A stretch of DNA of 53,755 nt from Rhodobacteraceae bacterium (ex Bugula neritina AB1). Lineage in GTDB: Bacteria > Pseudomonadota > Alphaproteobacteria > Rhodobacterales > Rhodobacteraceae. Position numbers and translations under genes: made by a program. Shown here piece by piece: positions 28,795-53,182 of this stretch. The stretch is taken from the NCBI GenBank assembly GCA_001730095.1, contig MDLF01000008.1, positions 1 to 53,755 of the forward strand. The letters are read 5' to 3'. The first letter of the stretch is position 1. Every line of letters starts with the position of its first letter. The notes below the pieces were generated by a model. The model searched no databases. It had not been told where the DNA came from and saw nothing but the letters and a program-made list of their open reading frames with translations.

Positions 28795-29598
28795 ATGAGC
28801 GCCTGTTTGACTTCAGTACTGAATGCATTGGCTTCGCCGGTTTTCCGGCGAAGCCTTGCTGTTGCCTGGGTCTTGGTGCTGAGCCTGGCCGGGCAATCAC
28901 AGGCCGACATCACTGTTTTTGCGGCCGCCAGTACAAAGACCGCTCTGGACGAGGCCGCCACCGCCTTTGAGGAGCGCACCGGCCTGCAAGTCACGCTCTC
29001 CTATGCCGGCTCGCCGGCGCTGGCCCGGCAGATCCAGCTGGGCGCCCCGGCAGATATCTTCATTTCCGCCAACCCGGGATGGATGGATGTTCTGCAGCAG
29101 GACGGTTTGACGGACCCCGCCACACGGCAAGATCTTCTGTCAAACCGGCTGGTTCTCATTGCACATGGCGACAATGCGCCACTGTTGGATCTGGAAACCA
29201 GTGATCTGGCTCAGGTGCTGGGCGACGGCCGCCTTGCGATGGCGCTGGTCGATGCCGTCCCGGCCGGGATTTACGGCAAGGCTGCACTGGCCTCTCTGGC
29301 ACAATGGCCCGCCGTTGAGCCCAAGGTGGCGCAGACGACAAATGTGCGCGCGGCTTTGGCTTTGGTCGCCTCAGGCGAAGCGCCTCTTGGCGTGGTTTAT
29401 GCCACGGACGCCGCCGCAAGCCCGGCGGTTTCGGTCGTTGCGGCCTTTCCGCAGGGCAGCCATCCTGAAATTGTCTATCCAGCCGCTGCAATAGCCGACA
29501 GAGAGGGCACCGGAACCCAGGCATTTCTGGATTTTCTGCGCAGTCCTGCGGTCATGGAGATTTTTGAGCGCCACGGCTTTGGAGTACCAGGCAGGTGA
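28795..29598 (+). CDS. modA: Molybdate ABC transporter substrate-binding protein
   Basis: Periplasmic molybdate-binding protein, about 267 residues including a signal peptide ending in LVLSLAGQSQA before DITVFAAAST. The mature part shows the ModA pattern (FEERTGLQVTLSYAGSPALA, GAPADIFISAN, then GIYGKAALASL). The start is uncertain: ATG 28795 follows AGGGGAG with no spacer, while TTG 28807 or 28828 would be better spaced or give a shorter signal peptide. A perfect hairpin overlaps this region (28830-28855). modB and modC follow with overlaps, so the three form one operon. Molybdate would serve the molybdopterin of xanthine dehydrogenase encoded in the same window. Confidence 0.92.
   Translation: MSACLTSVLNALASPVFRRSLAVAWVLVLSLAGQSQADITVFAAASTKTALDEAATAFEERTGLQVTLSYAGSPALARQIQLGAPADIFISANPGWMDVLQQDGLTDPATRQDLLSNRLVLIAHGDNAPLLDLETSDLAQVLGDGRLAMALVDAVPAGIYGKAALASLAQWPAVEPKVAQTTNVRAALALVASGEAPLGVVYATDAAASPAVSVVAAFPQGSHPEIVYPAAAIADREGTGTQAFLDFLRSPAVMEIFERHGFGVPGR
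28830..28855 (+). promoter_or_regulatory. Perfect hairpin in the modA signal-peptide region
   Basis: GGCTTCGCCGG-TTTT-CCGGCGAAGCC is an 11-bp perfect stem with a 4-base loop. It could be the terminator of the chemotaxis group if modA really starts downstream, or an RNA element near the modA start. No T-run follows beyond TTG. Confidence 0.45.
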
Positions 29599-30299
29599 GC
29601 GGCGGAGCGGCATGGCTGGGGCCAGAAGAATGGCAAGCGGTGCTGCTGTCGCTTCAGGTCTCAATCTGGGCAACGCTGGCGGCGCTGCCGCTCGCGGTGT
29701 TTGTGGCTTATGCCCTTGCGCGCTGGCACTTCCCCGGCAAGCAGATCCTCAACAGCCTGGTTCATCTGCCGCTCATTCTGCCGCCTGTGGTGACCGGCTA
29801 TCTGTTGCTGATGGTGTTTGGCACCAAAGGCCCGGTTGGCAGTGTTTTGCAGCAGGTCGGTATTGTTTTTGCCTTTCGCTGGACCGGTGCCGCGCTGGCA
29901 GCAGCCATCATGGCCTTTCCACTGATGGTGCGGGCAATCCGCCTGTCGGTGGAGGCCGTGGACCCCAAGCTGGAACAGGCCGCCGCAACCCTGGGGGCCT
30001 CCCGTTTGATGTGCTTTGCCACGATCACCCTGCCAATGATCCTGCCGGGGCTGATCGCTGGCACGGTTCTGGGCTTTGCCAAGGCGATGGGCGAATTCGG
30101 CGCCACCATCACATTTGTGTCCAGCATCCCGGGCCAGACACAAACGCTGCCCTCTGCGATTTACACCTTTCTGCAGGTGCCGGGCGGTGAAAGCGCGGCG
30201 CTGCGCCTGACGCTGGTTTCGATTGCCGTTGCTCTCAGCGCGTTGCTGCTGTCGGAGCTGCTTGCCCGCCGCGCCGCTGCGCGAATGGGGGGTCGCTGA
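29595..30299 (+). CDS. modB: Molybdate ABC transporter permease
   Basis: 234 residues with about five membrane segments. It carries the EAA-type loop that contacts the ATPase, with the sequence AATLGASRLMCFATITLPMILPG followed by AMGEFGATITF, typical of ModB. The GTG start overlaps the modA stop (GTGA), and the stop overlaps the modC ATG by one base. It forms the inner-membrane channel of ModABC. Confidence 0.94.
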   Translation: MSGGAAWLGPEEWQAVLLSLQVSIWATLAALPLAVFVAYALARWHFPGKQILNSLVHLPLILPPVVTGYLLLMVFGTKGPVGSVLQQVGIVFAFRWTGAALAAAIMAFPLMVRAIRLSVEAVDPKLEQAAATLGASRLMCFATITLPMILPGLIAGTVLGFAKAMGEFGATITFVSSIPGQTQTLPSAIYTFLQVPGGESAALRLTLVSIAVALSALLLSELLARRAAARMGGR

Positions 30300-31384
30300 T
30301 GCTGACGGTTTCGCTGCGCCATGCCCTTCCCGGGTTCGAGCTGGATGTGGAATTTGAGGCGCCACCTGGCGTCACCGTTCTGTTTGGACGCTCCGGCACT
30401 GGCAAGACAACGGTCATACAGGCCGTGGCGGGTCTGTTGCGGCCCAGCCAGGGGCGGGTGGTTTTGAATGGCAACGTGCTGCTGGACACGGAACGTCACC
30501 ATTGCCTGCCGCCGCACAAGCGCCGCATGGGCTATGTGTTTCAGGAAGGGCGACTGTTTCCGCATTTGACGGTGCGCCAGAACCTGCTGTTCGGACAATG
30601 GTTTGCGCCGCGCGATGCCAGCCGGGAAAGCCTGGACCGCGTGGTGGACATGCTGGGTATCGGGCCGCTTCTTACGCGGCGGCCCAGCGGGCTTTCGGGG
30701 GGGGAAAAGCAACGGGTGGCAATTGGCCGCGCCCTTCTGTCGGCCCCTCAGATGATCCTGGCGGATGAACCGCTCTCGGCATTGGATGAGGCACGCAAGG
30801 CAGAGATCCTGCCCTATTTTGAGCAGCTGCGGGACGAAACCGGCATCCCTATCCTTTATGTCAGCCATTCGGTGGCCGAAGTGGCCCGGCTGGCGACAAC
30901 AATTGTGGTGCTGCAGGACGGCAAGGTGCAGCGGCAGGGCCCTGCCGCCGAAGTGCTGGGCGATCCTGCCATCATGCCGACGGGTGTCCGGGCCGCCGGG
31001 GCGTTGCTGGAGGCAAAGGTTGTCCGGCACCACAGCGACGGTTTGACGGAATTGGACGCAGGAGGCGTGCCGCTGTTCCTGCCGCAAATCACCAAGACGC
31101 CCGGCAGTATCACCCGCGTCAGAATTTCAGCCCATGATGTGATCCTGTCGCGCCAACCTCCTGAAGGCTTGTCCGCGCTGAACATTTTACCGGGTACAAT
31201 TGAACAGATCCGCACCGGCAGCGGCCCCGGCGCCATTGTTTCGCTGAACACGCCTGCAGGCCGGGTCCTTGCACGGGTGACCCGGCGTTCGGCACAGGCT
31301 TTGCACCTTGATCCCGGTACAGATTGTTTCGCCGTTGTGAAAACCGTCTCCATCGCGCCTGAGGATATTGGCGGCGGCGGATAG
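30299..31384 (+). CDS. modC: Molybdate ABC transporter ATPase
   Basis: 361 residues. Walker A GRSGTGKTT (about 32-40), signature LSGGEKQRV, Walker B MILADEPLSALDEA and the switch His in YVSHSVAEV. The C-terminal part (about 290-355) is a MOP/TOBE-type domain that can bind molybdate and limit transport. It is the last gene of modABC. No modE regulator is seen nearby. Confidence 0.94.
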   Translation: MLTVSLRHALPGFELDVEFEAPPGVTVLFGRSGTGKTTVIQAVAGLLRPSQGRVVLNGNVLLDTERHHCLPPHKRRMGYVFQEGRLFPHLTVRQNLLFGQWFAPRDASRESLDRVVDMLGIGPLLTRRPSGLSGGEKQRVAIGRALLSAPQMILADEPLSALDEARKAEILPYFEQLRDETGIPILYVSHSVAEVARLATTIVVLQDGKVQRQGPAAEVLGDPAIMPTGVRAAGALLEAKVVRHHSDGLTELDAGGVPLFLPQITKTPGSITRVRISAHDVILSRQPPEGLSALNILPGTIEQIRTGSGPGAIVSLNTPAGRVLARVTRRSAQALHLDPGTDCFAVVKTVSIAPEDIGGGG

Positions 31385-31510: not shown

Positions 31511-32341
31511 ATGACCCAACGATCCTATTACGCACCGGAAGGCGGGCTGCCGCCGCAAACCCAGCTGCTGACTGACCGTGCAATGTTCACCGATGCTTAT
31601 GCGGTGATCCCCAAAGGCACGATGAGCGATATCGTGACCAGCCTGTTGCCGTTTTGGGACAAGGCCCGTTTCTGGGTGCTGTCGCGGCCCCTGTCCGGCT
31701 TTGCCGAGACCTTTTCCCAATATATCGCCGAGCTGCAGCCCGGCGGCGGCAGCGACCACCCGGACACCGAGCCGGGGGTTGAGGCGGTGCTGTTTGTGGT
31801 GCAGGGCGCCATGACGCTGACCATCGATGGCACCGCGCATGACATGGAGGAGGGCGGCTATGCCTTCCTGCCGCCACAAGCTGTCTGGAGCCTGCGCAAC
31901 ACCGGCGATGCGCCTGTGCGGTTCCACTGGATCCGCAAGGCCTATCAGGCGGTTGCGGGGCTGGATGCACCCGAGGCCTTTGTCACCAGCGACAAACATG
32001 TCGAACCGACCCCGATGCCGGAAACCGAAGGGAAATGGGCAACCACGCGGTTCGTAGACCCGAACGACCTGCGCCACGACATGCATGTGACCATTGTTAC
32101 CTTTGAACCCGGCGCAGTGATCCCCTTTGCCGAGACCCATGTGATGGAGCACGGGCTTTATGTGCTGGAAGGCAAGGCGGTTTATCGGCTGAACCAGGAT
32201 TGGGTCGAGGTCGAGGCCGGCGATTACATGTGGCTGCGCGCGTTTTGCCCGCAGGCCTGCTATGCAGGCGGTCCGGGCAAGTTCCGATATTTGCTGTACA
32301 AAGATGTGAACCGCCACATGCCACTGGCACCGCTGCGCTGA
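31511..32341 (+). CDS. allE: (S)-ureidoglycine aminohydrolase (bicupin)
   Basis: 276 residues, two cupin halves, the architecture of AllE/YlbA. It releases ammonia from (S)-ureidoglycine to give (S)-ureidoglycolate in the cytoplasm, with Mn2+ as cofactor in characterised members. Recognisable parts are GTMSDIVTSLLPFWDKARFW, a first cupin core (AMTLTIDGTAHDMEEGGYAFLPP) and a second one with metal ligands EHGLYVLEGKAVYRLN. An AGGAAAGG Shine-Dalgarno precedes the ATG. It is 126 bases after modC in the same direction and may be co-transcribed. It acts between the allantoinase step and AllA, both encoded about 8 kb away. Confidence 0.9.
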   Translation: MTQRSYYAPEGGLPPQTQLLTDRAMFTDAYAVIPKGTMSDIVTSLLPFWDKARFWVLSRPLSGFAETFSQYIAELQPGGGSDHPDTEPGVEAVLFVVQGAMTLTIDGTAHDMEEGGYAFLPPQAVWSLRNTGDAPVRFHWIRKAYQAVAGLDAPEAFVTSDKHVEPTPMPETEGKWATTRFVDPNDLRHDMHVTIVTFEPGAVIPFAETHVMEHGLYVLEGKAVYRLNQDWVEVEAGDYMWLRAFCPQACYAGGPGKFRYLLYKDVNRHMPLAPLR

Positions 32342-32351
32342 AAGCGGGCGT

Positions 32352-32382
32352 AGCGCCCGGCCCGGATATGTGCCCGGGCGCT
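32352..32382. terminator. Hairpin between convergent allE and bhcR
   Basis: AGCGCCCGG and CCGGGCGCT form a perfect 9-bp stem with a 13-base loop in a 51-bp gap between convergent genes. It lacks a T-run, so it is a weaker or bidirectional terminator candidate. Confidence 0.5.
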
Positions 32383-32392
32383 GCCCGGCTTG

Positions 32393-33226
32393 TCAGCCGG
32401 GCGGGGTCTCATCTGCCGCAGATGCGCCCAATCCATAGGAGAGTTTCTGCGCGGCTTCCCTGACCAGAGCGCCGATGCCGGTGATGCCGCCGTCCGGCAT
32501 CCGCGCCGTGGGGCCAGAAATGGAAATCCCGGCCAGCACCTCATTTTGCATCCCAAAAACCGGCGCTGCGACACAACGCATGCCGGGCGCCTTTTCCTCA
32601 TCATCAAAAGACCAGCCACGGTTGCGGATCTGCGCCAGATCTGCGCGCAAAGCCTCCGCCGTGGTCAGGGTTTTTGCTGTGAACCGCTCCAGGCTGCGCC
32701 CGCGCAGAAAACGGATGAGCTGATCTTCTTCAAAACAGCTGAGCAAGGCCTTGCCAATGCCCGACGCATGCATCGGTGAAATTGTTCCGGGCGGAAAGAA
32801 AGCGCGGATCGATTCATGGGTTTCCACCTGGCTCACAAACATCACATCACCGCCCCGTTCGATGCCGAGGTTGGAGGTCTCCCCCGTGGCCTCCATCAGC
32901 TCGCGCATCACCGGCCGGGCGCGTTCAATGACGCTGGAACGGCGCAGAAAAGCAGAGCCAAGGCGGAAGGCCATGGCACCGATATGCCAGGTCTGGCTTT
33001 GCGGTTCTGTTTCGACAATCTGGCGCGCCTCCAGGGTGGCCAGCACCCGGTACATGGTGGCGGCCGACTGGTCGAGTGCAGTGGAGAGTTCGGTCAGCGT
33101 CATACCGCCGGCACCGGCCAGCGCGTCCAGCACATCCAGCGCCCGGTCAAGCGATTGAATGGTGGCTGGCTGGTTGGCGGAATCAAAGCTTTTTGGGCGG
33201 CCTTTGCGGCGCGGCGGCTGGGGCAT
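32393..33226 (-). CDS. bhcR: IclR-family regulator of the beta-hydroxyaspartate cycle
   Basis: 277 residues. An N-terminal winged helix (about 22-85, SLDRALDVLDALAGAGGMTL, ATMYRVLATLEARQIVE) and a C-terminal IclR effector domain (FPPGTISPMHASGIGKALL, CVAAPVFGMQNEVLAGISISG). It is divergent from the bhcABCD operon, the same arrangement as BhcR in Paracoccus, which senses glyoxylate and controls the cycle. The family identity is clear; the specific role is inferred from position. It should bind in the AT-rich 198-bp gap before bhcA. Confidence 0.87.
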   Translation of the reverse strand: MPQPPRRKGRPKSFDSANQPATIQSLDRALDVLDALAGAGGMTLTELSTALDQSAATMYRVLATLEARQIVETEPQSQTWHIGAMAFRLGSAFLRRSSVIERARPVMRELMEATGETSNLGIERGGDVMFVSQVETHESIRAFFPPGTISPMHASGIGKALLSCFEEDQLIRFLRGRSLERFTAKTLTTAEALRADLAQIRNRGWSFDDEEKAPGMRCVAAPVFGMQNEVLAGISISGPTARMPDGGITGIGALVREAAQKLSYGLGASAADETPPG

Positions 33227-33293
33227 TTCCAGGCCTTTCTAGGCAATTCAAGCAGCAGCTTATGGATAATTATGAAAATCACTTCTGTACAGT

Positions 33294-33365
33294 GAAAAAA
33301 CTAAAGTGCTTGAAATTATGAAGTTTTTCTCCATTTTTCCAGTTTTTGAAATCTTTTTTCAAAAA
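33294..33365. promoter_or_regulatory. AT-rich bhcR-bhcA intergenic control region with inverted repeats
   Basis: The gap 33227-33424 is much AT-richer than its surroundings. It has two 8-bp inverted repeats: GAAAAACT...AGTTTTTC (arms at 33295-33302 and 33322-33329) and TTTTTGAA-N7-TTCAAAAA (33343-33350 and 33358-33365). One or both are likely BhcR binding sites. A TTGAAA at 33310 could be a -35 element, but I cannot fix the -10. Confidence 0.5.
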
Positions 33366-33424
33366 AATTCACCTGCGGACAGCTTCCCTTTACTGTGAAG
33401 GAAATCGCCACAGGAGGGCACGAA

Positions 33425-34615
33425 ATGAGCTTTCAAAACCCAGTTTTCATCCCCGGTCCGACCAATATGCCCGAAGCCCTGCGCAAGGCTGTGGACATGC
33501 CGACACTGGACCACCGCTCGCCGCTGTTCGGTCAGATCCTGCACCCGGCACTGGCCGGGGTAAAGAAGGTTCTGAAAAGCGAAAGCGCCGAGATTTTTGT
33601 CTTTCCGTCGACCGGAACTGGCGGCTGGGAAACGGCAATCAGCAATACTCTGAGTGCGGGAGACAAGGTGCTGGCGGCGCGCAACGGCATGTTCAGCCAC
33701 CGCTGGATCGACATGTGCCAGCGCCACGGGCTGGACGTTCAGCTTGTCGAAACCCCATGGGGCGAAGGCCTGCCTGCGGACCGCTACGAGGAAATCCTGA
33801 CCGCAGATACGGCGCATGAGATCAAGGCGGTTCTGGCAACCCACAACGAGACCGCAACCGGCGTGAAATCCGACATTGCCGCTGTCCGCCGCGCATTGGA
33901 TGCCGCCGGCCACCCGGCGCTGCTGTTTGTCGACGGCGTCAGCTCAATCGCTTCGATGGATTTCCGGATGGATGAATGGGGCGTCGATATTGCCGTCACC
34001 GGCTCGCAAAAAGGCTTCATGCTGCCACCCGGCCTGGCCATCGTTGGCGTCTCACCCAGGGCGATGCAGGCGGTAGAAACCGCGACCCTGCCGCGCACCT
34101 TCTTTGATATCAAGGATATGGCCAACGGCTATGCCAACAATGCCTATCCCTACACACCCTCTGTCGGGCTGCTGAACGGTCTGAACATGGCGTGTGGCAT
34201 GCTGCTGGACGAAGGGCTGGAGAATGTCTTTGCCCGCCACCACCGGATCGCCGAGGGCGTCCGCGCGGCCGTCCGGGCCTGGGGGCTGGAGCTCTGTGCT
34301 GTGTCGCCCGACGTCTATTCCGACAGCGTCAGCGCGATCCGCACGCCGGCAGGCTTTGACGCCAATAAATTCGTGAGCCTGGCGGCGGAGAAATACGGCG
34401 TCGCCTTTGGCACCGGCCTGGGCGCCGTCGCAGGCAAGGTGTTCCGCATCGGCCATCTGGGCAGCCTGACCGACGTGATGGCGCTATCAGGCCTCGCCAC
34501 CGCCGAAATGGTCATGGCCGACCTCGGCCTGAACATCCAGCTGGGCTCTGGCGTGGCGGCGGCGCAGGATTACTACCGCGGCACCCAGGCCAACAGCACC
34601 AAGGCTGCCGCCTGA
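33425..34615 (+). CDS. bhcA: Aspartate-glyoxylate aminotransferase (beta-hydroxyaspartate cycle)
   Basis: 396 residues, a class V PLP aminotransferase. It transfers the amino group of aspartate to glyoxylate, giving oxaloacetate and glycine, the step that closes the cycle. The family start NPVFIPGPTNMPEALRKAV is clear and the PLP lysine lies in TGSQKGFMLPPG. The ATG at 33425 has an AGGAGGG Shine-Dalgarno; the frame extends upstream but without support. It is the first gene of bhcABCD. Without the neighbours it could be called serine-glyoxylate aminotransferase; the operon decides. Confidence 0.92.
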   Translation: MSFQNPVFIPGPTNMPEALRKAVDMPTLDHRSPLFGQILHPALAGVKKVLKSESAEIFVFPSTGTGGWETAISNTLSAGDKVLAARNGMFSHRWIDMCQRHGLDVQLVETPWGEGLPADRYEEILTADTAHEIKAVLATHNETATGVKSDIAAVRRALDAAGHPALLFVDGVSSIASMDFRMDEWGVDIAVTGSQKGFMLPPGLAIVGVSPRAMQAVETATLPRTFFDIKDMANGYANNAYPYTPSVGLLNGLNMACGMLLDEGLENVFARHHRIAEGVRAAVRAWGLELCAVSPDVYSDSVSAIRTPAGFDANKFVSLAAEKYGVAFGTGLGAVAGKVFRIGHLGSLTDVMALSGLATAEMVMADLGLNIQLGSGVAAAQDYYRGTQANSTKAAA

Positions 34616-34629
34616 TGAAGGATACCGCG

Positions 34630-35583
34630 ATGTATATCCCGACCTATGAGGACATGCTGGCGGCGCATGAGCGCATCCAGCCCCACATCCGCCGCACGCC
34701 GGTGCGCACCTCTGCCTACCTGAATGAGCTGACCGGGGCGGAGCTGTTCTTCAAATGCGAGAACTTCCAGGAACCGGGCGCCTTCAAGGTGCGCGGCGCC
34801 AGTAACGCGGTGTTCGGGCTGGACGCGGCGCAGGCCGCCAAGGGTGTGGCGACGCATTCCTCGGGCAACCATGCCTCCTGCCTGTCTTATGCCGCGATGC
34901 TGCGCGGCATTCCCTGCAACGTGGTGATGCCGCGCACCGCGCCGCAGGCCAAGAAGGACACCGTGCGCCGTTACGGCGGCAGGATCACCGAATGCGAGCC
35001 CTCGACCTCCTCGCGTGAGGAGAGTTTTGCCAAAGTGCAGGCCGAGACCGGCGGCGATTTTGTGCATCCCTACAATGACCACCGGGTCATCGCAGGGCAG
35101 GGCACCTGCGCCAGGGAGTTTGTGGAACAGACCGATGGCCTGGACATGGTTGTCGCACCCATCGGCGGCGGCGGCATGATCTCCGGCACCTGCCTGACGC
35201 TGTCGACCCTGGCACCGGAAACCCAGGTGATCGCGGCAGAGCCAGAGCAGGCCGATGACGCCTACCGCAGCTTCAAGGCGGGTTACATCATCGCCGATGA
35301 TGCGCCCAAGACCATTGCCGACGGGCTGCTGGTGCCGCTGAAAGACCTGACCTGGCATTTTGTCTCGGGCCACGTCAGCGAAATCTACACCGCGTCGGAT
35401 GCCCAGATCATCGAGGCGATGAAAATGATCTGGAAGCACCTGCGCATCGTGATGGAGCCATCCTCGGCGGTGCCACTGGCCACCATACTGAAAAACAAAC
35501 AGGCCTTCGCGGGCAAACGCGTGGGCCTGATCGTCACCGGCGGCAATGTCGACCTCGACAAGCTGCCCTGGATGAACAGCTAA
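34630..35583 (+). CDS. bhcB: beta-Hydroxyaspartate dehydratase
   Basis: 317 residues, a fold-type II PLP enzyme of the serine/threonine dehydratase group. It removes water from (2R,3S)-beta-hydroxyaspartate to give iminosuccinate. The PLP lysine is Lys53 (EPGAFKVRGA), the Ser/Asn loop is SSGNHASCLSYA, and the glycine loop is PIGGGGMISG. ATG 34630 has AAGGA at good spacing and begins MYIPTYEDML; an ATG at 34615 overlapping the bhcA stop would add five residues. Confidence 0.92.
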   Translation: MYIPTYEDMLAAHERIQPHIRRTPVRTSAYLNELTGAELFFKCENFQEPGAFKVRGASNAVFGLDAAQAAKGVATHSSGNHASCLSYAAMLRGIPCNVVMPRTAPQAKKDTVRRYGGRITECEPSTSSREESFAKVQAETGGDFVHPYNDHRVIAGQGTCAREFVEQTDGLDMVVAPIGGGGMISGTCLTLSTLAPETQVIAAEPEQADDAYRSFKAGYIIADDAPKTIADGLLVPLKDLTWHFVSGHVSEIYTASDAQIIEAMKMIWKHLRIVMEPSSAVPLATILKNKQAFAGKRVGLIVTGGNVDLDKLPWMNS

Positions 35584-35599
35584 ACTGGGGAATAGAACC

Positions 35600-44356: not shown

Positions 44357-45274
44357 CTACTTTCCGCTACCGAAGCGCCGAAAGGCCGCCAGCCCCTGTT
44401 TCACCGCATAGTCCACGAACAGGCGGATCTTCGGGTCCTGCAATTTGCGGTGCGGGTAAAGACAGCCGAAAATGGTCGGCTCCGGCGGCGTGTCCGGCAG
44501 CACCTCGACCAAGGCACCGCTCTGCAGATGCGCGGCGACGTCAAACCGCGGCTTGTTGACGATGCCGCGCCCGTCCAGCGCCCAGTTGGTCAGCACATCG
44601 CTGTCATCGGCGTCAAATTTGCCCGAAACCTCCAGCTTGCGCGGGCCGTCGGGTGTTTCCAGCGTCCAGTAGTATTCAGGCGAACGCGGATAGCGCAGCA
44701 GCAGGCAGTTGTGACCACTCAGCAGATCCTCAGGTGTCTGCGGGCTGCCATACCGCGCCAGATACTCCGGCGCGGCACATAGCACCCGTTTGCAATCGGC
44801 GATCTTGCGCATCTTCAGGGTGGAGTCATGCGGTGTGCCGATAAAGAACGCCACATCCAGCCCTTCCGCCAGAATATCCACCTTCCGGTCCGACATCCGC
44901 ATGCGGATTTCAGTGGCAGGATAATCCTCGACAAACCCTGGCACCAGCGGCGCAATAATGCGGCGGCCGACACCCAGCGGCGCGGTCACCCGGATCACCC
45001 CGCGCGGTGCGGCGGAGAATTGCGAAACCACTGCCTCTGCGTCTTCAATCGATTCGAGCACCTTCTTGACTTCGGTATAAAACAGCTGCCCGGCCTCGGT
45101 CGGGGTCAGCGATCTTGTGGTGCGGTTGAACAAACGCACGCCAAGATGTTTTTCCAGCTCCTTGATCCGCTTGCTGGCCACCGCCGGCGTCAGACGCAAA
45201 TCGCGCCCGCCAGAGGTGATGCTGCCCAATTCGACAACCCGGCAAAAGACGCGCAGAGATTCCAGATACGACAT
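44357..45274 (-). CDS. LysR-family regulator, divergent from xdhABC
   Basis: 305 residues. LysR helix-turn-helix (SLRVFCRVVELGSITSGGRD, ASKRIKELEKHLGVRLFNR) and effector domain (GVIRVTAPLGVGRRIIAP). It is divergent from xdhA with a 207-bp gap that holds two dyad elements, so it probably controls xanthine dehydrogenase. It is a paralogue-like relative of the LysR at 41972-42880, and the pair flanks puuD. Confidence 0.88.
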   Translation of the reverse strand: MSYLESLRVFCRVVELGSITSGGRDLRLTPAVASKRIKELEKHLGVRLFNRTTRSLTPTEAGQLFYTEVKKVLESIEDAEAVVSQFSAAPRGVIRVTAPLGVGRRIIAPLVPGFVEDYPATEIRMRMSDRKVDILAEGLDVAFFIGTPHDSTLKMRKIADCKRVLCAAPEYLARYGSPQTPEDLLSGHNCLLLRYPRSPEYYWTLETPDGPRKLEVSGKFDADDSDVLTNWALDGRGIVNKPRFDVAAHLQSGALVEVLPDTPPEPTIFGCLYPHRKLQDPKIRLFVDYAVKQGLAAFRRFGSGK

Positions 45275-45481: not shown

Positions 45482-46945
45482 ATGGCACATCAAACCAGCA
45501 TACGCTTTCTTCTGAACGGCAAGGGTATCGTGCTGGAGGACGTGCCAGCGACCACCACCCTGCTGGATTTCCTGCGGCTGGAACAGCGCCTGACCGGCAC
45601 CAAGGAAGGCTGCGCCGAGGGCGATTGTGGCGCCTGCACCGTGCTGGTGGGGCGGCTGCAGGACGGCGCCCTGCGCTATGAGGCGGTGAACGCCTGCATC
45701 CGGTTTCTGGCCTCGCTCAACGGCTGCCATGTGGTCACGGTTGAGCATCTGTCCGGCCCGAACGGTCGCCTGCATCCGGTGCAGCAGGCGATGGTCGAAC
45801 ATCACGGCAGCCAATGCGGCTTCTGCACGCCCGGCTTCGTGATGTCGCTGTATGCGCTGTGGATGGAAAACCCGCAGCCCACAGAGACACAGGTGGAAAC
45901 CGCCGTGCAGGGCAACCTCTGCCGCTGCACCGGCTATGAGCCGATTGTGAAGGCAGCACTTGCAGTGAACCAATACGGCACCCCGGCCAATGACTACCTG
46001 ACCACTGAACGCGCCAGCCTGACAGCCCAGCTGCAAGCGATCCAGCCCGAAGCCCGCGTCGTGACCGGCCCCAAGGACGACCGCGCCATCCTGCCGCTGG
46101 ATGCGGCGGATCTGGCAGAGGTGCTGGCAGAAAACCCCAAGGCAACCATTGTTGCAGGCTCCACCGATGTGGGCCTCTGGGTCACCAAATTCATGAAACC
46201 GATCTCGCCAGTGGTGTTTGTCGCCCATCTGGAGGAGCTGAAGGCGGTTGAGCAGACAGATGAGGCGCTGACCCTCGGTGCCGGCGTCACCTATACCGAA
46301 AGCGAAACCGCGATCCGTGATGCCTTCCCGCATCTGAGCGCATACTGGGACCGCATCGCCGGCTGGCAGGTGCGCAACATGGGCACCATCGGTGGCAATA
46401 TCGCCAACGGCTCCCCCATCGGGGACACCCCGCCGGTGCTGATTGCGCTGGGTGCCGAGGTGACCCTGCAGAAAAAGGGCGGCTCCCGCACCCTGCCACT
46501 GGAAGACTTCTTTATCGACTACGGCAAACAGGACCGCGCGCCGGGCGATTTTGTGGCCGCCATCCGCATTCCGCTGCGCCGGGACGGGCAGATCGATGCT
46601 GCCTACAAGATTTCCAAGCGCCGGGATGAGGATATCTCCTCAGTCGCCGCCGGGATCAGCGTTACTGTGACCGACGGCGTGATCACCTCTGCCCGCATTG
46701 CCTTTGGTGGCATGGCGGCAACGCCCAAACGCGCCGCTGGCGCTGAGGCCGCGCTGCTAGGCCAGCCCTGGGGCGAGGCTGCGTTTGACGCGGCAGCGGC
46801 GGCGGTGAAGCAGGACTTCACCCCCTTGAGCGACTGGCGCGCCTCGGCTGAGTACCGCGCGCTGACAGCCAGCAACCTGCTGCGCCGCTTCTATCTGGAA
46901 AACGATGCGGGAACCGCCGGGGCCGTCCGGCTGGCCGTCGCCTGA
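45482..46945 (+). CDS. xdhA: Xanthine dehydrogenase small subunit (2Fe-2S and FAD)
   Basis: 487 residues. The plant-type [2Fe-2S] cluster has C44, C49, C52 and C72, and the second cluster has C112, C115, C147 and C149 (CGFC...CRC). A linker leads to the FAD-binding domain (about 185-360, TIVAGSTDVGLWVTKFM, MGTIGGNIANGSPIGD) and the CODH-type C-terminal domain. It passes electrons from the Mo subunit to NAD+. GGGAGG precedes the ATG at 45482; the frame runs open upstream to 44828, antisense to the LysR gene, but that part is not coding. First gene of xdhA-xdhB-xdhC-permease-guaD. Confidence 0.95.
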   Translation: MAHQTSIRFLLNGKGIVLEDVPATTTLLDFLRLEQRLTGTKEGCAEGDCGACTVLVGRLQDGALRYEAVNACIRFLASLNGCHVVTVEHLSGPNGRLHPVQQAMVEHHGSQCGFCTPGFVMSLYALWMENPQPTETQVETAVQGNLCRCTGYEPIVKAALAVNQYGTPANDYLTTERASLTAQLQAIQPEARVVTGPKDDRAILPLDAADLAEVLAENPKATIVAGSTDVGLWVTKFMKPISPVVFVAHLEELKAVEQTDEALTLGAGVTYTESETAIRDAFPHLSAYWDRIAGWQVRNMGTIGGNIANGSPIGDTPPVLIALGAEVTLQKKGGSRTLPLEDFFIDYGKQDRAPGDFVAAIRIPLRRDGQIDAAYKISKRRDEDISSVAAGISVTVTDGVITSARIAFGGMAATPKRAAGAEAALLGQPWGEAAFDAAAAAVKQDFTPLSDWRASAEYRALTASNLLRRFYLENDAGTAGAVRLAVA

Positions 46946-46956: not shown

Positions 46957-49287
46957 ATGAAAGACCATCAGACCATCAGCGGCGCCGTGCATCATGACCG
47001 CCAGCACGACAGTGCCATCAAACATGTGACCGGGCGCGCCGAATACACCGACGATATCGCCGAACCCTATGGCACGCTGCACGCTTACCTGGGTGTCTCC
47101 ACCGTGGCGCATGCCAATATCAAAGGCATCGATTTGTCAGCTGTGCGCGCCGCACCCGGCGTGGTGGATGTACTGACCGCCGATGACATCCCCGGCGTCA
47201 ACGACATCAGCCCCACCGGCAAGCATGACGAGCCGGTATTCCCGACAGAGAAAGTCGAATTCCACGGCCAGCCGATGTTTGCGGTCATCGCCGAAACCCG
47301 TGATGCCGCCCGCCGGGCGGCTGAGCTGGCGCAGGTCGACTACGAAGTGCTGCCGCATGCGCTGGACGCAGGCTCCGCGCAGGAGGCCGGCTATCCCATG
47401 GTCACCGACCCGCTGAAGCTGGAGCGCGGCGATGTGGACGCGGGCCGCAAGGACGCCCCCCACCGCATTCAGGCGCAGATGACTGTGGGCGGCCAGGACC
47501 ACATGTATCTGGAGGGCCACATCGCCTTTGCCATCCCCGGCGAAGACGAGGATGTGACCCTGCATTGCTCCACCCAGCACCCCAGCGAGGCGCAGCATAT
47601 GGTGGCGCATGTTCTGGGCGTGGCGAACAATGCGGTGACCGTCAACGTGCGCCGCATGGGCGGCGGCTTTGGCGGCAAGGAAAGCCAGATGAACCTGTTC
47701 TGCGCGGTGGCTGCGATTGCCGCCAAGAAACACAACCGCGCCGTCAAGATCCGCCCTGACCGCGATCAGGACATGACCGCCACCGGCAAACGCCATGACT
47801 TCGTGATCGATTATGACGTGGCCTTTGACGGCGACGGCCGCATCCAGGCCGTTGAGGGCAGCTTTGCCGCGCGCTGCGGCTATTCCTCGGACCTGTCGGG
47901 GCCGGTCACCGACCGGGCGCTGTTCCATGCGGATAACGCCTATTTCTACCCGAACGTGCTGCTGAAAAGCCGCCCGATGAAGACCAACACGGTTTCGAAC
48001 ACCGCCTTCCGCGGCTTTGGCGGCCCGCAGGGCGTGGTTGCTGCCGAACGAATGATCGAAGAGATCGCCTATGCCCTCGGCAAGGACCCTTTGGATGTGC
48101 GCAAAGCCAACTTCTATGGCGAAGAGGGCCGCGACCTGACCCCTTACCATCAGAAGGTGGAGGATAATATCCTCGACCGGCTGATCACCGAACTGGAAGA
48201 AAACGCCGGGTACCGCAAGCGCCGCGAGGAGATCATCGCCTTCAACAAGGACTCGAAGATCATCAAGAAGGGCATTGCCCTGACGCCGGTGAAATTCGGC
48301 ATCTCCTTTACCGCGACCTGGTACAATCAGGCGGGTTCCTTGATCCATGTCTATAACGACGGCTCGATCCACCTGAACCACGGCGGCACCGAAATGGGGC
48401 AGGGCCTGAATACCAAGGTGGCGCAAGTGGTGGCCGATGCGTTCCAGGTGGATTTCGAACGCATCAAGATCACCAAAACCACAACCGAGAAAGTGCCCAA
48501 CACCTCTGCCACCGCGGCCTCTTCGGGGTCGGACCTCAACGGCATGGCAGCCTTGGATGCGGCGGAACAGATCATTGCCCGGCTGACCACATTCGCCAAG
48601 GAACATGCGCTCGACAAATGGGGCGAGGAAGATGCCGAAGTCGAATTCCTGCCCAACCGCGTGCGCGTCGGCAGCAAGGTGATCGCCTTTGATACGCTGG
48701 TGAAAGAGGCCTATATGGCCCGCGTTCACCTGTCGGCAGCGGGGTTCTACAAGACGCCGGAAATCCACTGGAACCGGGAGGAGGGCAAAGGGCAACCGTT
48801 CTTCTACTACGCCTATGGCGCGTCCTGCTCGGAAGTGTCGGTCGACACGCTGACTGGCGAATACCGGGTGGAGCGCACCGACATCCTGCATGACGTGGGC
48901 CGCTCGCTGAATCCGGTTCTGGACAAAGGCCAGGTCGAGGGCGCATTCATTCAGGGCATGGGATGGTTGACGACAGAGGAACTGTGGTGGGACGGCCAAG
49001 GCCGGTTGCGCACCCATGCGCCATCGACCTACAAGATCCCGCTGGCCTCTGACCGGCCCCGCATCTTCAACACACAGCTGGCCGAATGGTCGGTGAACAA
49101 GAAGCGCACCATCAAACGGTCCAAGGCCGTGGGTGAGCCGCCGTTCATGCTGGGGATTTCTGTCTTTGAGGCCCTGTCGATGGCGGTTGCCAGCACCGCG
49201 GATTACAGGATCTGCCCGCGCCTTGATGCGCCCGCCACGCCAGAGCGCGTGCTGATGGCGATCGAAACCCTCAAGGGGCAGGGCTGA
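46957..49287 (+). CDS. xdhB: Xanthine dehydrogenase large subunit (molybdopterin-binding)
   Basis: 776 residues. It binds the molybdopterin and oxidises hypoxanthine and xanthine to urate. Visible parts are an N-terminal ald_xan_dh domain (VTGRAEYTDDIAEPYGTLHA), the Mo-cofactor loops RRMGGGFGGKESQM, AFRGFGGPQG and NHGGTEMGQGLNTKV, the catalytic Glu region near the end (KAVGEPPFMLGISVFEAL) and TAATSSGSDLNG-like SATAASSGSDLNGMA. A GAGGAGAG ribosome site lies 11 bases after the xdhA stop. Molybdenum would come through ModABC. Confidence 0.95.
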   Translation: MKDHQTISGAVHHDRQHDSAIKHVTGRAEYTDDIAEPYGTLHAYLGVSTVAHANIKGIDLSAVRAAPGVVDVLTADDIPGVNDISPTGKHDEPVFPTEKVEFHGQPMFAVIAETRDAARRAAELAQVDYEVLPHALDAGSAQEAGYPMVTDPLKLERGDVDAGRKDAPHRIQAQMTVGGQDHMYLEGHIAFAIPGEDEDVTLHCSTQHPSEAQHMVAHVLGVANNAVTVNVRRMGGGFGGKESQMNLFCAVAAIAAKKHNRAVKIRPDRDQDMTATGKRHDFVIDYDVAFDGDGRIQAVEGSFAARCGYSSDLSGPVTDRALFHADNAYFYPNVLLKSRPMKTNTVSNTAFRGFGGPQGVVAAERMIEEIAYALGKDPLDVRKANFYGEEGRDLTPYHQKVEDNILDRLITELEENAGYRKRREEIIAFNKDSKIIKKGIALTPVKFGISFTATWYNQAGSLIHVYNDGSIHLNHGGTEMGQGLNTKVAQVVADAFQVDFERIKITKTTTEKVPNTSATAASSGSDLNGMAALDAAEQIIARLTTFAKEHALDKWGEEDAEVEFLPNRVRVGSKVIAFDTLVKEAYMARVHLSAAGFYKTPEIHWNREEGKGQPFFYYAYGASCSEVSVDTLTGEYRVERTDILHDVGRSLNPVLDKGQVEGAFIQGMGWLTTEELWWDGQGRLRTHAPSTYKIPLASDRPRIFNTQLAEWSVNKKRTIKRSKAVGEPPFMLGISVFEALSMAVASTADYRICPRLDAPATPERVLMAIETLKGQG

Positions 49288-49290
49288 GCC

Positions 49291-50220
49291 ATGACCCGCC
49301 GCCTCTCCCTCCAGGACTTTCTGGCCAGTCGCAAACATGTGGTGCAGGTTAGGCTGACCCGCGTTCGCGGATCCTCCCCGCGCGAGGCTGGCACCAGCAT
49401 GTTTGTGGCGGCAGATGGGCTGTGGGGCACTATTGGCGGCGGCCAGCTGGAATATATCACCATCGACCACGCCCGGCGGATGCTGAGACAGCATGTGATC
49501 AGCGACACGCTGGATGTGCCGCTGGGGCCGGAGATCGGCCAGTGCTGCGGCGGCCGGGTAGAAATGTCGCTGGCGCAGATGCGCCAGGCCGACCGCGATG
49601 CCGCGATGGCCCGCCAGCAGGCCGAAGACCAGGCGCTGCCGCATGTCTATGTGATGGGCGCAGGCCATGTGGGCCGGGCGCTGGCGGATCTGTTCCAGCA
49701 TATGCCGCTGCGCTGCATCCTGATCGACCAGCGCGCCGAGGAACTTGCCCTGTGCAACGCGGACGTTGAAATCCGCCAAAGCGCCATCCCCGAGATCGAC
49801 ATCGCCACGGCCCCCGCGGGCAGTGGCTTTGTGGTTCTCACCCATGATCACGCGCTTGACTTCCTGCTTGCCTCTGCTGCCCTGCAGCGCGGCGATGCGG
49901 GCTATGTCGGCCTGATCGGATCGGCCACCAAGCGGGAGAAATTCCGCCGCTGGTGCCGGGACCATTGCGACGGTCTGGGAACAGACCGTCTCATCTGCCC
50001 CATCGGGGCAGGCGGCAGCCGCGACAAGCGGCCCAGCGTCATCGCGGCCTTCGTGGCAGCGGAAGTGATCGCTGATCTGACCTCTGCAACTGCCGCGACC
50101 GCTCCAGAACGGAGCATGGAAATGCCCCCAAAGGGCAAGCAACCGGACGCAGAGGGAGACACGGCTGGAGCACCCAGCCGTCAAGGACTGCGTCCTCTTG
50201 ACAGGAGGAGGCCGCCATGA
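49291..50220 (+). CDS. xdhC: Xanthine dehydrogenase accessory protein (Mo-cofactor maturation)
   Basis: 309 residues. XdhC binds molybdopterin, favours its sulfuration and delivers it to XdhB. The N-terminal XdhC/CoxI motif VRLTRVRGSSPREAGTSMFV is followed by GTIGGGQLEYI and QCCGGRVEM. A Rossmann domain follows (VYVMGAGHVGRALADL, GFVVLTHDHALDF, YVGLIGSATKREKF, ICPIGAG). It starts three bases after xdhB. Its stop overlaps the permease ATG by four bases. The last ~45 residues are a low-complexity tail. Confidence 0.94.
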   Translation: MTRRLSLQDFLASRKHVVQVRLTRVRGSSPREAGTSMFVAADGLWGTIGGGQLEYITIDHARRMLRQHVISDTLDVPLGPEIGQCCGGRVEMSLAQMRQADRDAAMARQQAEDQALPHVYVMGAGHVGRALADLFQHMPLRCILIDQRAEELALCNADVEIRQSAIPEIDIATAPAGSGFVVLTHDHALDFLLASAALQRGDAGYVGLIGSATKREKFRRWCRDHCDGLGTDRLICPIGAGGSRDKRPSVIAAFVAAEVIADLTSATAATAPERSMEMPPKGKQPDAEGDTAGAPSRQGLRPLDRRRPP

Positions 50221-51809
50221 CCGGGCGGAGCTACACGTACAAACTGTTCGCGCGGAATGACTTCAGTGCATTCTGGGCGCTGTTCACCGACAATCTGATC
50301 AACCTGATCGTGCTTTCGGGCATCTGTCAGTTTGTGTTCAACATGCCTGCCGACATCGTGTTCGGCCGCATCGTGCCCGGCGCCGCAGTGGCGATCCTGG
50401 CCGGTATCGCGGTTTACACCTGGCTGGCCAAACATGTCGCCGAAAAGGAAGGCCGCGACGTGACCGCGCTGCCTTACGGCATCTCGACCCCCGTTATGTT
50501 CGTCTATCTGTTCGGGGTGATCGGGCCGATCTACTGGTCCACAAATGACGCGATGCTGGCCTGGCAGGTGGGTATCGGCGCGGGCTTCATGGGCGGCATC
50601 GTCGCCGCCATGGGCGCCATCGTCGGCCCCTGGCTCAAGCGGGTGACCCCGCGCGCAGGCATGCTGGGCACTCTCTGCGGTATTGCGCTGGTCTTCATCG
50701 GCACCGTGCCGCTGGCCACGATTTTCGAGGACCCCTTCATCGGCTTTGCCTCGATGATCATCATCCTGTGGGGACTGGTGGGCCGCCACCGGCTGCCGTT
50801 CAATATCCCGGCGGGCCTCTTGGCCTTAATCGTCGGCACTGTTGTGGCGCTGGGTATGGGCAAGGCGTCGATCTCCTTCGACGGTGTGGGCGTCTACCTG
50901 CCTATCCCCTATTTCGGCGACCTGATTGCCGGCATCCAGCATCTGTTTGCCAACCCGGAACTGTTCCTGGTTCTGGTGCCGGTGCAGATCTACAACTTCA
51001 TCGAAACCATGAACAACGTCGAAAGCGCCGAAGCCGCGGGCGACCATTACCCGGTCGGCGTCTGCCAGGTGACCGATGGCGTCGGCACCATGATCGGTGC
51101 GGTCTTCGGCTCGCCGTTCCCGACCACCGCCTATATCGGCCATCCGGCCTATAAACGCATGGGGGCGCGCTCGGGCTATATCATCGGCGTTGGCCTGGTG
51201 ATCCCCTTTGCCGCCTTCTTTGGCCTTCTGGCGTTCCTCAACAACCTGATCCCCGTGGCCGCTGCCGCGCCGGTGCTGGTGTTTGTGGCGCTCAGCCTGG
51301 TGACCAATACCGCACATTCGGTAAAGACTGACCATATCGCTGCGGTGACCATTGCGATGATGCCGCATGTCTCCTCCTTCCTGGTGATCAAATGGGGGGC
51401 GCTGGCCGGCGCATTGGGCGCATTGGGCGCCACCGGCATGGCCCAGCTGGGCGATCCAGAGCTGACCGCAGCGCTGCTGCAGCAGGGCGCCCATTACGAA
51501 GGCCATCTGGCGCTCAGCCAGGGGGCGATCATCACCGGCCTGATCTGGGGCGCCATCGTGGCCAGCGTGATTGACGGCGATTTCCGCAATGCCGGCGGCT
51601 TTGCCCTGGCAGCGGCGGTGATGTCGCTGGTCGGCGTGATCCATTCCGCCAGCCTGCATTGGCCAGAGTTCAGCGGTATCGCGCTTGGCTACCTGCTCGC
51701 TGCCGGTTTCCTGTTCATCTACCCGATCTTCCACAAGGCGGATGCGCATGAGGAAGAAGAGGACGACAGCGTGAAACCGCATGTGCCGCATGTGCCAGCG
51801 GGCGAATAA
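50217..51809 (+). CDS. Putative purine permease, AzgA-like branch of the NCS2 superfamily
   Basis: 530 residues, about 12-14 membrane segments. Family-like parts are LFARNDFSAFWALFTDNLIN, TALPYGISTPVMFVYLFGVI, NFIETMNNVESAEAAGDHYP and GSPFPTTAYIGHPAYKRMG. This pattern differs from the NAT permease at 37945-39417, so the cluster has two unlike carriers. Its place between xdhC and guaD suggests guanine, hypoxanthine or xanthine as substrate; that is inference. The C-terminus is an acidic/His-rich cytoplasmic tail (HEEEEDDSVKPHVPHVP). Start is coupled to xdhC (ATGA overlap) with an AGGAGGAGG ribosome site. Confidence 0.82.
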   Translation: MTGRSYTYKLFARNDFSAFWALFTDNLINLIVLSGICQFVFNMPADIVFGRIVPGAAVAILAGIAVYTWLAKHVAEKEGRDVTALPYGISTPVMFVYLFGVIGPIYWSTNDAMLAWQVGIGAGFMGGIVAAMGAIVGPWLKRVTPRAGMLGTLCGIALVFIGTVPLATIFEDPFIGFASMIIILWGLVGRHRLPFNIPAGLLALIVGTVVALGMGKASISFDGVGVYLPIPYFGDLIAGIQHLFANPELFLVLVPVQIYNFIETMNNVESAEAAGDHYPVGVCQVTDGVGTMIGAVFGSPFPTTAYIGHPAYKRMGARSGYIIGVGLVIPFAAFFGLLAFLNNLIPVAAAAPVLVFVALSLVTNTAHSVKTDHIAAVTIAMMPHVSSFLVIKWGALAGALGALGATGMAQLGDPELTAALLQQGAHYEGHLALSQGAIITGLIWGAIVASVIDGDFRNAGGFALAAAVMSLVGVIHSASLHWPEFSGIALGYLLAAGFLFIYPIFHKADAHEEEEDDSVKPHVPHVPAGE

Positions 51810-51835
51810 CCCCCAATGACCCTCTAAAAACAATG

Positions 51836-51860
51836 GGCAGGGGGCCGCGCGCCCCCTGCC
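51836..51860 (+). other. Intercistronic hairpin before guaD
   Basis: GGCAGGGGGC and GCCCCCTGCC make a perfect 10-bp GC stem with a 5-base loop, between the permease stop and the guaD ribosome site. No T-run follows. It may be an RNA-processing or partial attenuation point that sets different levels of the permease and the deaminase. Confidence 0.5.
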
Positions 51861-51883
51861 TGCGAACCAAGGACAACACTGAC

Positions 51884-53182
51884 ATGACACCGAAACAGAC
51901 GCTGCTGCGTGGCCGCGTGCTTTCCTTCACCGCCGAACCGCAAGGAGCTGAGGACACCAGCGCCTATGCGTTCATCGAAGATGGCGCACTGCTGATCGCC
52001 GACGGTATGATCCTGGCCAAGGGCAGCTATGATACGGTTTCGGCGCAGGCGGCCGACGCCACGGTGATCGATCACCGCCCGCATCTCCTGATGGCCGGCT
52101 TCATCGACACCCATCTGCATTTCCCGCAGGTGCAGGTGATCGCCTCCTGGGGCTCGCAGCTGCTGGATTGGCTGAACAATTACACCTTCCCGGAGGAGCT
52201 CCGCTTTGCCGATGCCGGCCACAGCGCCGAGATGGCCGGGCATTTCTTTGACCTCTTGACCGCCCATGGCACCACCACCGCGGTGGCCTATTGCTCAGTT
52301 CACAAAACCTCCGCCGAGGCCTATTTCACCGAGGCTGCCCGCCGCAACATGCGGATGATCGGCGGCAAGGTGCTGATGGACCGCAACGCGCCCGACGGGC
52401 TGCTGGATACGCCAATCAGCGGCTATGACGACACCAAGGCGCTGATCGCGAAATACCACGGCCAGGGCCGCGGCATGTACGCAATCACCCCGCGCTTTGC
52501 CATTACCTCCACCCCCGATCAGATGGCGATGGCAGGCGCCTTGGTGAAGGAACACCCGGACTGCTACGTGCAGACCCATCTGTCGGAGAACCACGACGAG
52601 ATCGCCCTCACCGCAGATCTCTACCCGCAGGCGCGCGACTATCTGGACGTTTACCAGTCCTATGGCCTGCTCACCGAAAAGATGCTGCTGGGCCACTCGA
52701 TCCACCTCAAGCCGCGCGAGATCGATGCGCTGGCCGAGACCCGGGCCAAACCGGTGTTCTGCCCGACCTCGAACCTGTTCCTGGGCAGCGGGCTGTTTGA
52801 TGACGCGGGCCTGCGCAGCCGCGGCATTACCAATGCGATTGCCACCGACATCGGTGCAGGCACCAGCTATTCGATGCTGCAGACCCTGAACGAAGGCTAC
52901 AAGGTCCTGCAGCTGCAGACCCAGAAGTTGCACCCTTTGCGCGCCTTCCACTGGATCACCCGCGGCAATGCGGTTGCGCTGGGGCTGGAAGACAGGATCG
53001 GCACGCTGGAGGCAGGCACCGAAGCCGATATCGTCGTGCTCGATTCCCGCGCCACACCCGCGATGGACCTGCGGATGCAGCGGGCCGAAACCCTGTCCCA
53101 AGAGCTGTTCATCCTGCAGACACTGGGCGACGACCGCTCAATTGCACAGACTTATGTATCCGGCCAACCGATGAAACCCTGA
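51884..53182 (+). CDS. guaD: Guanine deaminase
   Basis: 432 residues, amidohydrolase superfamily with one Zn. It converts guanine to xanthine, feeding XdhAB. Zn ligands are visible in the FIDTHLHFPQ motif (HxH), in THLSENHDEI and in the Asp of AIATDIGAGTSYSMLQ. The C-terminus closes with LGLEDRIGTLEAGTEADIVV typical of these enzymes. ATG 51884 has an AAGGA site; an upstream extension to 51833 runs through the intercistronic hairpin and is unlikely. Last gene of the xdh operon, ended by the terminator at 53187. Confidence 0.94.
   Translation: MTPKQTLLRGRVLSFTAEPQGAEDTSAYAFIEDGALLIADGMILAKGSYDTVSAQAADATVIDHRPHLLMAGFIDTHLHFPQVQVIASWGSQLLDWLNNYTFPEELRFADAGHSAEMAGHFFDLLTAHGTTTAVAYCSVHKTSAEAYFTEAARRNMRMIGGKVLMDRNAPDGLLDTPISGYDDTKALIAKYHGQGRGMYAITPRFAITSTPDQMAMAGALVKEHPDCYVQTHLSENHDEIALTADLYPQARDYLDVYQSYGLLTEKMLLGHSIHLKPREIDALAETRAKPVFCPTSNLFLGSGLFDDAGLRSRGITNAIATDIGAGTSYSMLQTLNEGYKVLQLQTQKLHPLRAFHWITRGNAVALGLEDRIGTLEAGTEADIVVLDSRATPAMDLRMQRAETLSQELFILQTLGDDRSIAQTYVSGQPMKP

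Follow-up and report, generated by a model that had tools for sequence, protein, structure and literature searches.

A stretch of 53,755 nucleotides from Rhodobacteraceae bacterium (ex Bugula neritina AB1) (contig MDLF01000008.1 of assembly GCA_001730095.1; hereafter the window) was analyzed by open reading frame (ORF) calling and profile scans. A cluster of purine and ureide degradation genes at positions 31511-53182 was found to enclose bhcR and the genes for the four enzymes of the beta-hydroxyaspartate cycle (BHAC) at 32393-37801, and the observation of this combined supercluster is confirmed. We consider it probable that the locus is a catabolic supercluster leading from purines to central carbon, with bhcRABCD as a plug-in glyoxylate sink joined to ureide breakdown. 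All genes named here by an original prediction were found at the locus, and the chain that it proposed, from guanine through glyoxylate to oxaloacetate, is complete on paper, including the allantoate step that it had left open. Its interpretation as a whole is partly supported.

In the proposed scheme, guanine and xanthine would be taken up and converted by GuaD, XdhABC, PuuD, UraH, UraD and PuuE to allantoate, from which the cupin protein AAH (see below) and AllA would free glyoxylate, plus urea and/or ammonia. BhcA-D would then turn two molecules of glyoxylate into one of oxaloacetate with no loss of CO2. The bhcRABCD genes would be switched by glyoxylate via BhcR, as in Paracoccus denitrificans, and the BHAC would take the place that the glycerate pathway has in other bacteria. 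We infer that ureide-derived glyoxylate flows through the BHAC in vivo.

Gene content of the locus

All five bhc genes score above their NCBIfam equivalog cut-offs, and bhcABCD lie in a single gene run on the forward strand. They encode aspartate-glyoxylate aminotransferase (bhcA, 33395-34615; NF045640, 760 bits, cut-off 650), beta-hydroxyaspartate dehydratase (bhcB, 34615-35583; NF045641, 578 bits, cut-off 550), beta-hydroxyaspartate aldolase (bhcC, 35600-36763; NF045642, 751 bits, cut-off 690) and iminosuccinate reductase (bhcD, 36836-37801; NF045643, 587 bits, cut-off 500). The IclR-type regulator of the operon is encoded by bhcR on the reverse strand (32393-33226; NF045644, 411 bits, cut-off 350). 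The bhcC gene is the sole BhcC match of its genome at E<=0.001. A role of BhcA as ureidoglycine-glyoxylate aminotransferase was considered and rejected: the nearest PDB entry is a serine-glyoxylate aminotransferase (6pk1, 378 bits), with UGXT (3nnk) at 102 bits and PucG (3isl) at 126 bits.

The surrounding cluster carries a gene for every step from guanine to glyoxylate. Guanine deaminase is encoded by guaD (51833-53182, forward; TIGR02967, 548 bits, cut-off 375) and xanthine dehydrogenase by three forward genes, namely xdhA for the small subunit (45482-46945; TIGR02963, 672 bits, cut-off 467), xdhB for the molybdopterin subunit (46957-49287; TIGR02965, 1313 bits, cut-off 850) and xdhC for the accessory protein (49291-50220; TIGR02964, 274 bits, cut-off 162). 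For xdhA, a 705-aa ORF starting at 44828 is an overcall, and the ATG at 45482 agrees with the annotated gene of Leisingera thetidis. These are joined by puuD for the membrane urate oxidase (42932-44245, forward; PF06181, 444 bits), uraH for hydroxyisourate hydrolase (41543-41899, forward; TIGR02962 above cut-off), a puuE-uraD fusion that combines allantoinase and OHCU decarboxylase in one 471-aa ORF (39978-41393, reverse; TIGR03212 and TIGR03164 above cut-offs), and allA for the glyoxylate-forming ureidoglycolate lyase (39490-39981, reverse; PF04115, with NF002952 above cut-off). Two paralogous LysR regulator genes (PF00126 and PF03466 in both), missing from the gene list of the original prediction, lie on the reverse strand, LysR 1 (41972-42880) divergent from puuD and LysR 2 (44357-45274) divergent from xdhA.

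The allantoate step is covered by a forward-strand cupin gene at 31511-32341, previously called AllE, whose product matches NF040771 (508 bits, cut-off 350), the model of the bifunctional allantoicase/(S)-ureidoglycine aminohydrolase (AAH). It is predicted to convert allantoate to ureidoglycolate/ureidoglycine. We surveyed 120 genomes of the same family, each of another genus code and with a completeness floor of 90%, under identical search settings. AAH was present in 110 of them and canonical allantoicase in two, while AllC reached its cut-off in none of the 120; AllC-like proteins below the cut-off occur in 109 genomes, with two such proteins in the genome of the window itself, where allantoicase was not found. 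Because AAH is widespread, canonical allantoicase rare and above-cut-off AllC absent in the survey, the AAH cupin likely acts at the allantoate step of the cluster.

Two purine permeases had also been proposed. The first is borne out by NCS2 family matches: a pbuX-like permease of the xanthine/urate type is encoded on the reverse strand at 37945-39417, separated from bhcD by 143 bases (TIGR03173 403 bits, just under the cut-off of 414; TIGR00801 above cut-off; PF00860). The second, a conserved protein of 530 aa (50217-51809, forward), gave no sequence match in Pfam, NCBIfam or the PDB and owes its name solely to relatives annotated as 'xanthine/uracil/vitamin C permease', among which the best match (L. 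thetidis) is 97% identical. No significant similarity was detected between the two proteins.

Recurrence of the linkage in other genomes and plasmids

BhcC was above cut-off in 47 of the 120 survey genomes, with 49 loci in total, and PuuE was found in 115. Genes were counted as linked when they lay within 20 kb on the same contig; 63 BhcC rows of at least 362 bits entered the count and weaker rows were left out, as were 12 PuuE rows below cut-off, including the sole match of G018 (one such row, in G053, was kept). By this definition, bhcC is linked to AAH or PuuE at 24 of the 49 loci (23 of the 47 genomes), or at 23 of 49 if one AAH fragment below cut-off (G050) is excluded. A GlcD-like gene was detected at E<=1e-120 in 115 of the 120 genomes (none above the family cut-off), and within 20 kb of bhcC at 0 of 49 loci. 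Considering only AAH-bearing genomes, 19 of 45 bhcC loci are linked to AAH (one of the 19 via the fragment below cut-off), which corresponds to P of about 2e-26 if a 1% chance for each locus and independence are assumed, and to a Fisher value of 8e-8 against the 0 of 48 for bhcC and GlcD. The other pairs gave 87/112 (AAH-PuuE), 1/109 (AAH-GlcD) and 2/112 (PuuE-GlcD). Since contigs break, the linkage seen in the survey is a minimum. The 14 weaker BhcC-type loci, below the cut-off, include two that lie no more than 20 kb from AAH and PuuE and none that lies this close to GlcD. In G050, a second bhc operon adjoins a 144-aa AAH-like remnant (L099:7085-7519).

We also analyzed named genomes, using the 80 best matches to the BhcC of the window with up to 10 kb of each flank, a set that is not an even sample. 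Eight purine genes were called at 45% identity and half coverage. At least one of them is present at 39 of the 80 loci, and AAH at 25. Of the 59 loci whose two flanks each reach 9 kb or more, 34 have a purine gene; 29 of the 59 have at least two and 25 at least three. No score was given to 16 of the 80 loci, whose flanks are short and lack a purine gene. Linked loci occur in Leisingera, Shimia, Ruegeria, Roseovarius, Aliiroseovarius, Paracoccus, Palleronia, Loktanella, Sulfitobacter and others, as well as beyond Rhodobacterales in Fulvimarina, Oricola and Nitratireductor. One locus scored as unlinked (L053) carries an NCS2 permease and a UreI gene.

At least eight layouts of bhc and purine genes were distinguished. 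The order of the window, AAH-bhc-permease-allA-puuE-uraH-LysR-puuD-LysR-xdh, is also found in L013 and L016. In other layouts, xdh-permease-guaD stands ahead of AAH-bhc (L021, L025, L031), LysR-xdh (L008, L010, L011) or permease-guaD-uraH-puuD (L004-L006) follows bhcD, xdh is inverted (L041), AAH lies within a ureide operon (L035, L054), ureide genes lie upstream of bhcR (L058), or ureide genes flank bhc on the left and urate/xanthine genes on the right (L048).

A number of plasmids carry the same association. BhcC-type matches were found in 120 plasmid records, in 117 of which identity reaches at least 60%. Window positions 31511-44245 are covered to 80% or more by 17 Leisingera plasmids; for the left 25 kb of the window, none of the plasmid records reaches 80% coverage. 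Judging by these matches and by the close permease relative in L. thetidis, the host is probably a Leisingera. The plasmid pBMJM1_3 of L. thetidis is collinear with 25656-53176 (83-89% identity), with an additional AmiS/UreI gene (L106:24387-24899) between bhcD and the permease. We examined 18 plasmid regions, which were hand-picked and do not form a sample; one of them carries no annotation. On a 108-kb plasmid of Pseudosulfitobacter pseudonitzschiae, the layout is mirrored (bhc-AAH-guaD-permease-xdh-puuD-uraH-puuE-allA); 41 Pseudosulfitobacter records look like near-copies and were counted as one. On a Paracoccus plasmid (SMMA_5), bhcABCD continues co-directionally into genes for an NCS2 permease, 8-oxoguanine deaminase and uraH (a gap of 44 bases, an overlap of one base and a gap of 17, in that order) and then puuD. 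In Methylobacterium, bhc stands beside a purine set of different build, with 8-oxoguanine deaminase, an NCS2 permease, a molybdoenzyme and uraD. The megaplasmid of Ruegeria TM1040 has the ureide genes in the same order (AAH-permease-allA-puuE-uraH-LysR-puuD-guaD), with bhc and xdh absent at that place and no counterpart of the bhc block of the window (32342-37966) at the junction. Since the linkage recurs across genera, plasmids and layouts, it is not specific to one strain, and the synteny expected by the original prediction is supported.

The same does not hold for its proposal that the molybdate transporter genes modABC (28711-31384, forward; NCBIfam modA, modB and modC) are part of the system. 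They lie near bhcC at only one of the 80 best-match named loci (Leisingera aquaemixtae); modABC is also present on the L. thetidis plasmid, and the annotation of the Pseudosulfitobacter stretch examined does not show it. We thus regard modABC as a local Leisingera neighbour and not as a conserved part.

Downstream of bhcD, the best-match loci have a GAPDH-like gene in 13 cases of 80 (e.g., L035:12300-13286), a malic enzyme-PTA gene in 10 (e.g., L015:12856-15141) and an AmiS/UreI-family gene for a urea/amide channel in 8; in the window, none of the three is found between bhcD and the permease. The GAPDH-like and malic enzyme-PTA genes occur at both linked and unlinked loci, and their position would fit entry of oxaloacetate into central carbon metabolism. 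A consistent alternative partner of unlinked bhc was sought in 10 annotated cluster representatives, which gave only GAPDH and malic enzyme. Among the plasmids, bhc lies beside an alpha-hydroxy acid oxidase gene in Agrobacterium, and in Aminobacter and P. pantotrophus its neighbours form a set of alcohol/aldehyde dehydrogenase and glutamine-synthetase-like genes; in Limimaricola it lies beside NCS1 permeases and a gene of the aspartate/glutamate racemase family, with urea uptake genes close by. Taken together, bhc appears to be a module that serves as a glyoxylate sink in general, and the ureide cluster is its commonest recurring partner among the loci examined.

Some further features were observed. 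A small conjugative plasmid of Roseovarius mucosus (L113:14042-16164) has bhcB and bhcC with no annotated bhcA or bhcD, next to mercury genes and genes for a TRAP transporter and an oxidoreductase, and on a Sulfitobacter OXR-159 plasmid (L122:4485-11234) a Tn3-family transposon and other elements split bhcA from a short gene of the IclR family that stands where bhcR would be. Elsewhere in the window are genes for a heavy-metal P-type ATPase with MerR (5709-8713), for the trio of PrkA kinase, YhbH-like protein and SpoVR (10138-14929), and for an adhesin-like protein with Ca tandem repeats, after which come the TolC-like, ABC and HlyD components of a type I secretion set (15661-23131).

Regulation, glyoxylate supply and competing explanations

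In the gap between the divergent bhcR and bhcA, a conserved palindrome (33344-33364; score 28.3, core TGAAA-N5-TTTCA) forms a putative BhcR operator. The exact core is present in 42 of 70 bhcR-bhcA regions, with a mean of 0.0 in 20 single-base shuffles, although these regions had also served to choose the pattern and to train the matrix; the 60 of 63 bhcR/bhcA regions scoring at p<=0.05 are likewise a circular result. According to the accessible text of PMC11323563, BhcR of P. denitrificans responds to glyoxylate and is required for growth on glyoxylate and glycolate. Weak BhcR-like sites at p<=0.05 were detected between puuE and uraH in 7 of 18 regions, the window included (41456-41476; score 9.6, shuffle p 0.01), between LysR 2 and xdhA in 5 of 9, and between LysR 1 and puuD in 0 of 10, these sequences being related to one another. 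Strong sites are confined to the bhcR/bhcA regions, with a weak excess at puuE/uraH and LysR 2/xdhA, and shared BhcR control of the purine genes was considered but not retained; LysR 1 and LysR 2 are the more likely regulators of these genes. In L068, an apparent site ahead of xdhA scores 23; it seems to be the bhc promoter motif of the same locus, which a misplaced start had brought into the scan, and was not counted. A scan of 36700-41600 gave no promoter-like site (1.4 expected) and six terminator-like sites (3.8 expected, sd 2.4).

With up to 10 first-look candidates scored in each genome, glyoxylate carboligase (Gcl) was not found at E<=1e-150 in any of the 120 family genomes, the E. coli control being positive, and all six candidates of the window's own genome were scored with none reaching this level. 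Thus, the usual branch for ureide glyoxylate was not found in a family in which PuuE and AAH are widespread. As for the urea released, no urease was found in the genome of the window (best match 60 residues, 22.6 bits), compared with its presence in 97 of the 120 survey genomes. A full-length urea carboxylase was also not found there among the 5 of 19 candidates scored (up to five first-look candidates were scored per genome), which matched only over the biotin-carboxylase part. Urea from ureides would thus be lost in this strain, as is likewise proposed for purine catabolism in SAR11 in the accessible text of PMC11698098. Purine carbon may therefore outweigh urea nitrogen here, and this does not extend to the survey in general. 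Loss of urease as the driver of the linkage was rejected, 3 of 23 linked genomes being urease-negative versus 20 of 97 others (Fisher p 0.56).

Several findings weigh against the reading preferred here. The genome contains a glcDEF set (GlcF above its cut-off, GlcD and GlcE below theirs), on contig C96 and thus not next to bhc on contig C8, as well as malate synthase G, so that ureides are not the only possible input of the BHAC, nor is the BHAC the only outlet for glyoxylate. On a plasmid of Sinorhizobium meliloti Rm41, glycolate oxidase genes directly precede bhcABCD (L109:4872-14175). No strong BhcR site was found at purine promoters in the matrix scan. In addition, 25 of the 49 survey loci have no AAH or PuuE within 20 kb on the same contig, 25 of the 59 well-flanked best-match loci have none of the eight purine genes, and among 14 hand-picked annotated bhcC plasmid records, six have purine genes, one is uncertain (Limimaricola) and seven have none, including Ruegeria pomeroyi DSS-3 and P. 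marcusii, where bhc has no such partners of any kind described above.

Two other explanations were considered. One is that bhc serves here mainly for algal glycolate, the purine neighbours adding a minor and incidental share of glyoxylate. The description of the BHAC for glycolate (accessible text of PMC11323563), the glcDEF set and the arrangement in Rm41 speak for it; the complete lack of bhcC-GlcD linkage in the survey, as opposed to the 24 of 49 loci linked to AAH or PuuE, speaks against it, and nothing in the 80 best-match loci exceeds 31% identity to the GlcD of this genome. We therefore consider this explanation unlikely. The original idea that ureide glyoxylate feeds the BHAC gains from the linkage and is narrowed at the same time, because glycolate stays a possible input.

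The other explanation, that catabolic cargo modules, often borne on plasmids, merely became neighbours and were inherited together, bears on the tree of BhcC (81 rows, 65 of them labelled). The linked/unlinked label requires 11 changes on it, compared with a mean of 20.2 after shuffling (0 of 500 shuffles as low), and at least four changes are forced by supported branches. Since the label changes and yet clusters, inheritance and turnover both contribute. Such clustering speaks for a purely positional association, and the presence of the cluster on Leisingera and Pseudosulfitobacter plasmids, the roughly half of bhcC loci that are unlinked and the lack of a strong shared operator agree with it. 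However, the repeated changes on the tree, the at least eight layouts, the differently composed purine set of Methylobacterium and the co-directional bhcABCD-purine run of SMMA_5 argue against mere position, which we judge to be quite improbable. A functional supercluster with bhcRABCD as the sink for ureide glyoxylate thus accounts best for the observations.

Lone BhcC-type aldolases bear on the origin of the association. In three genera (G022, G089 and G066), an AAH gene is directly followed by such an aldolase gene beside ureide genes (AAH-aldolase pairs at L096:8113-10109, L097:8813-10785 and L098:10552-12464), with a 4-base overlap of the two genes in G089. Identity to the BhcC of the window is 70% in G022, 59% in G089 and 52% in G066, and only the first is above the BhcC cut-off. 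No bhcA, bhcB or bhcD was found in the 14-19 kb around them, the G066 stretch stopping at a contig end. In a tree of 52 rows, these aldolases, and a fourth from G102, branch outside operon-type BhcC, with long-branch warnings. The hydroxyaspartate route of Rhodobacteraceae might accordingly be primarily a carbon sink for purines and ureides that began as an AAH-aldolase two-gene unit, the BHAC operon being a later, mobile completion reused for glycolate. This is a doubtful proposal, given that no AAH lies beside the aldolase of G102 and that only the two below-cut-off survey aldolases mentioned above, out of 14, are within 20 kb of AAH.

Relation to known systems

Our results suggest that many related bacteria can use purines as a carbon source via the BHAC. 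The ureide glyoxylate of many Rhodobacteraceae would thereby gain a carbon-conserving destination, and purines and allantoin, usually seen as nitrogen sources, are predicted to supply carbon to oxaloacetate, widening the role of the BHAC beyond glycolate. That purine glyoxylate is relevant to organisms with the BHAC is known, purines and allantoin being already named as glyoxylate sources in the introduction of PMC11323563. What appears to be new is a purine/ureide cluster in which the BHAC would replace the glycerate pathway as the glyoxylate branch; a literature search that left most subscription journals outside did not find a linkage of bhc and purine genes, including in the accessible text of PMC11323563, PMC4016543, PMC11166783 and PMC11698098.

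The bhc genes of the window resemble bhcRABCD of P. denitrificans in having four enzymes and a regulator, with bhcR divergent from bhcA and a conserved palindrome between them. They differ in being embedded in purine and ureide genes, whereas the P. denitrificans system, in the accessible text of PMC11323563, is described as serving glycolate use, and the locus tags of glcDEF are distant there. With the SAR11 purine catabolism operon, as presented in the accessible text of PMC11698098, the locus shares the route from purines to glyoxylate and the release of urea where urease is absent; the term 'hydroxyaspartate' occurs 0 times in the main text of that paper, and the fate of glyoxylate is not assigned there to the BHAC by name.

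A glyoxylate sink beside genes for purine breakdown has precedents. The allantoin regulon of E. coli combines a purine/allantoin gene set with genes of the glycerate pathway. A similar combination of purine/allantoin and glycerate-pathway genes is reported for Rubrobacter xylanophilus in the accessible text of PMC4016543. The window shares the principle of these two sets and differs in the sink itself, which is the BHAC, keeps both carbons and stands in a family where Gcl was found in none of the 120 genomes.

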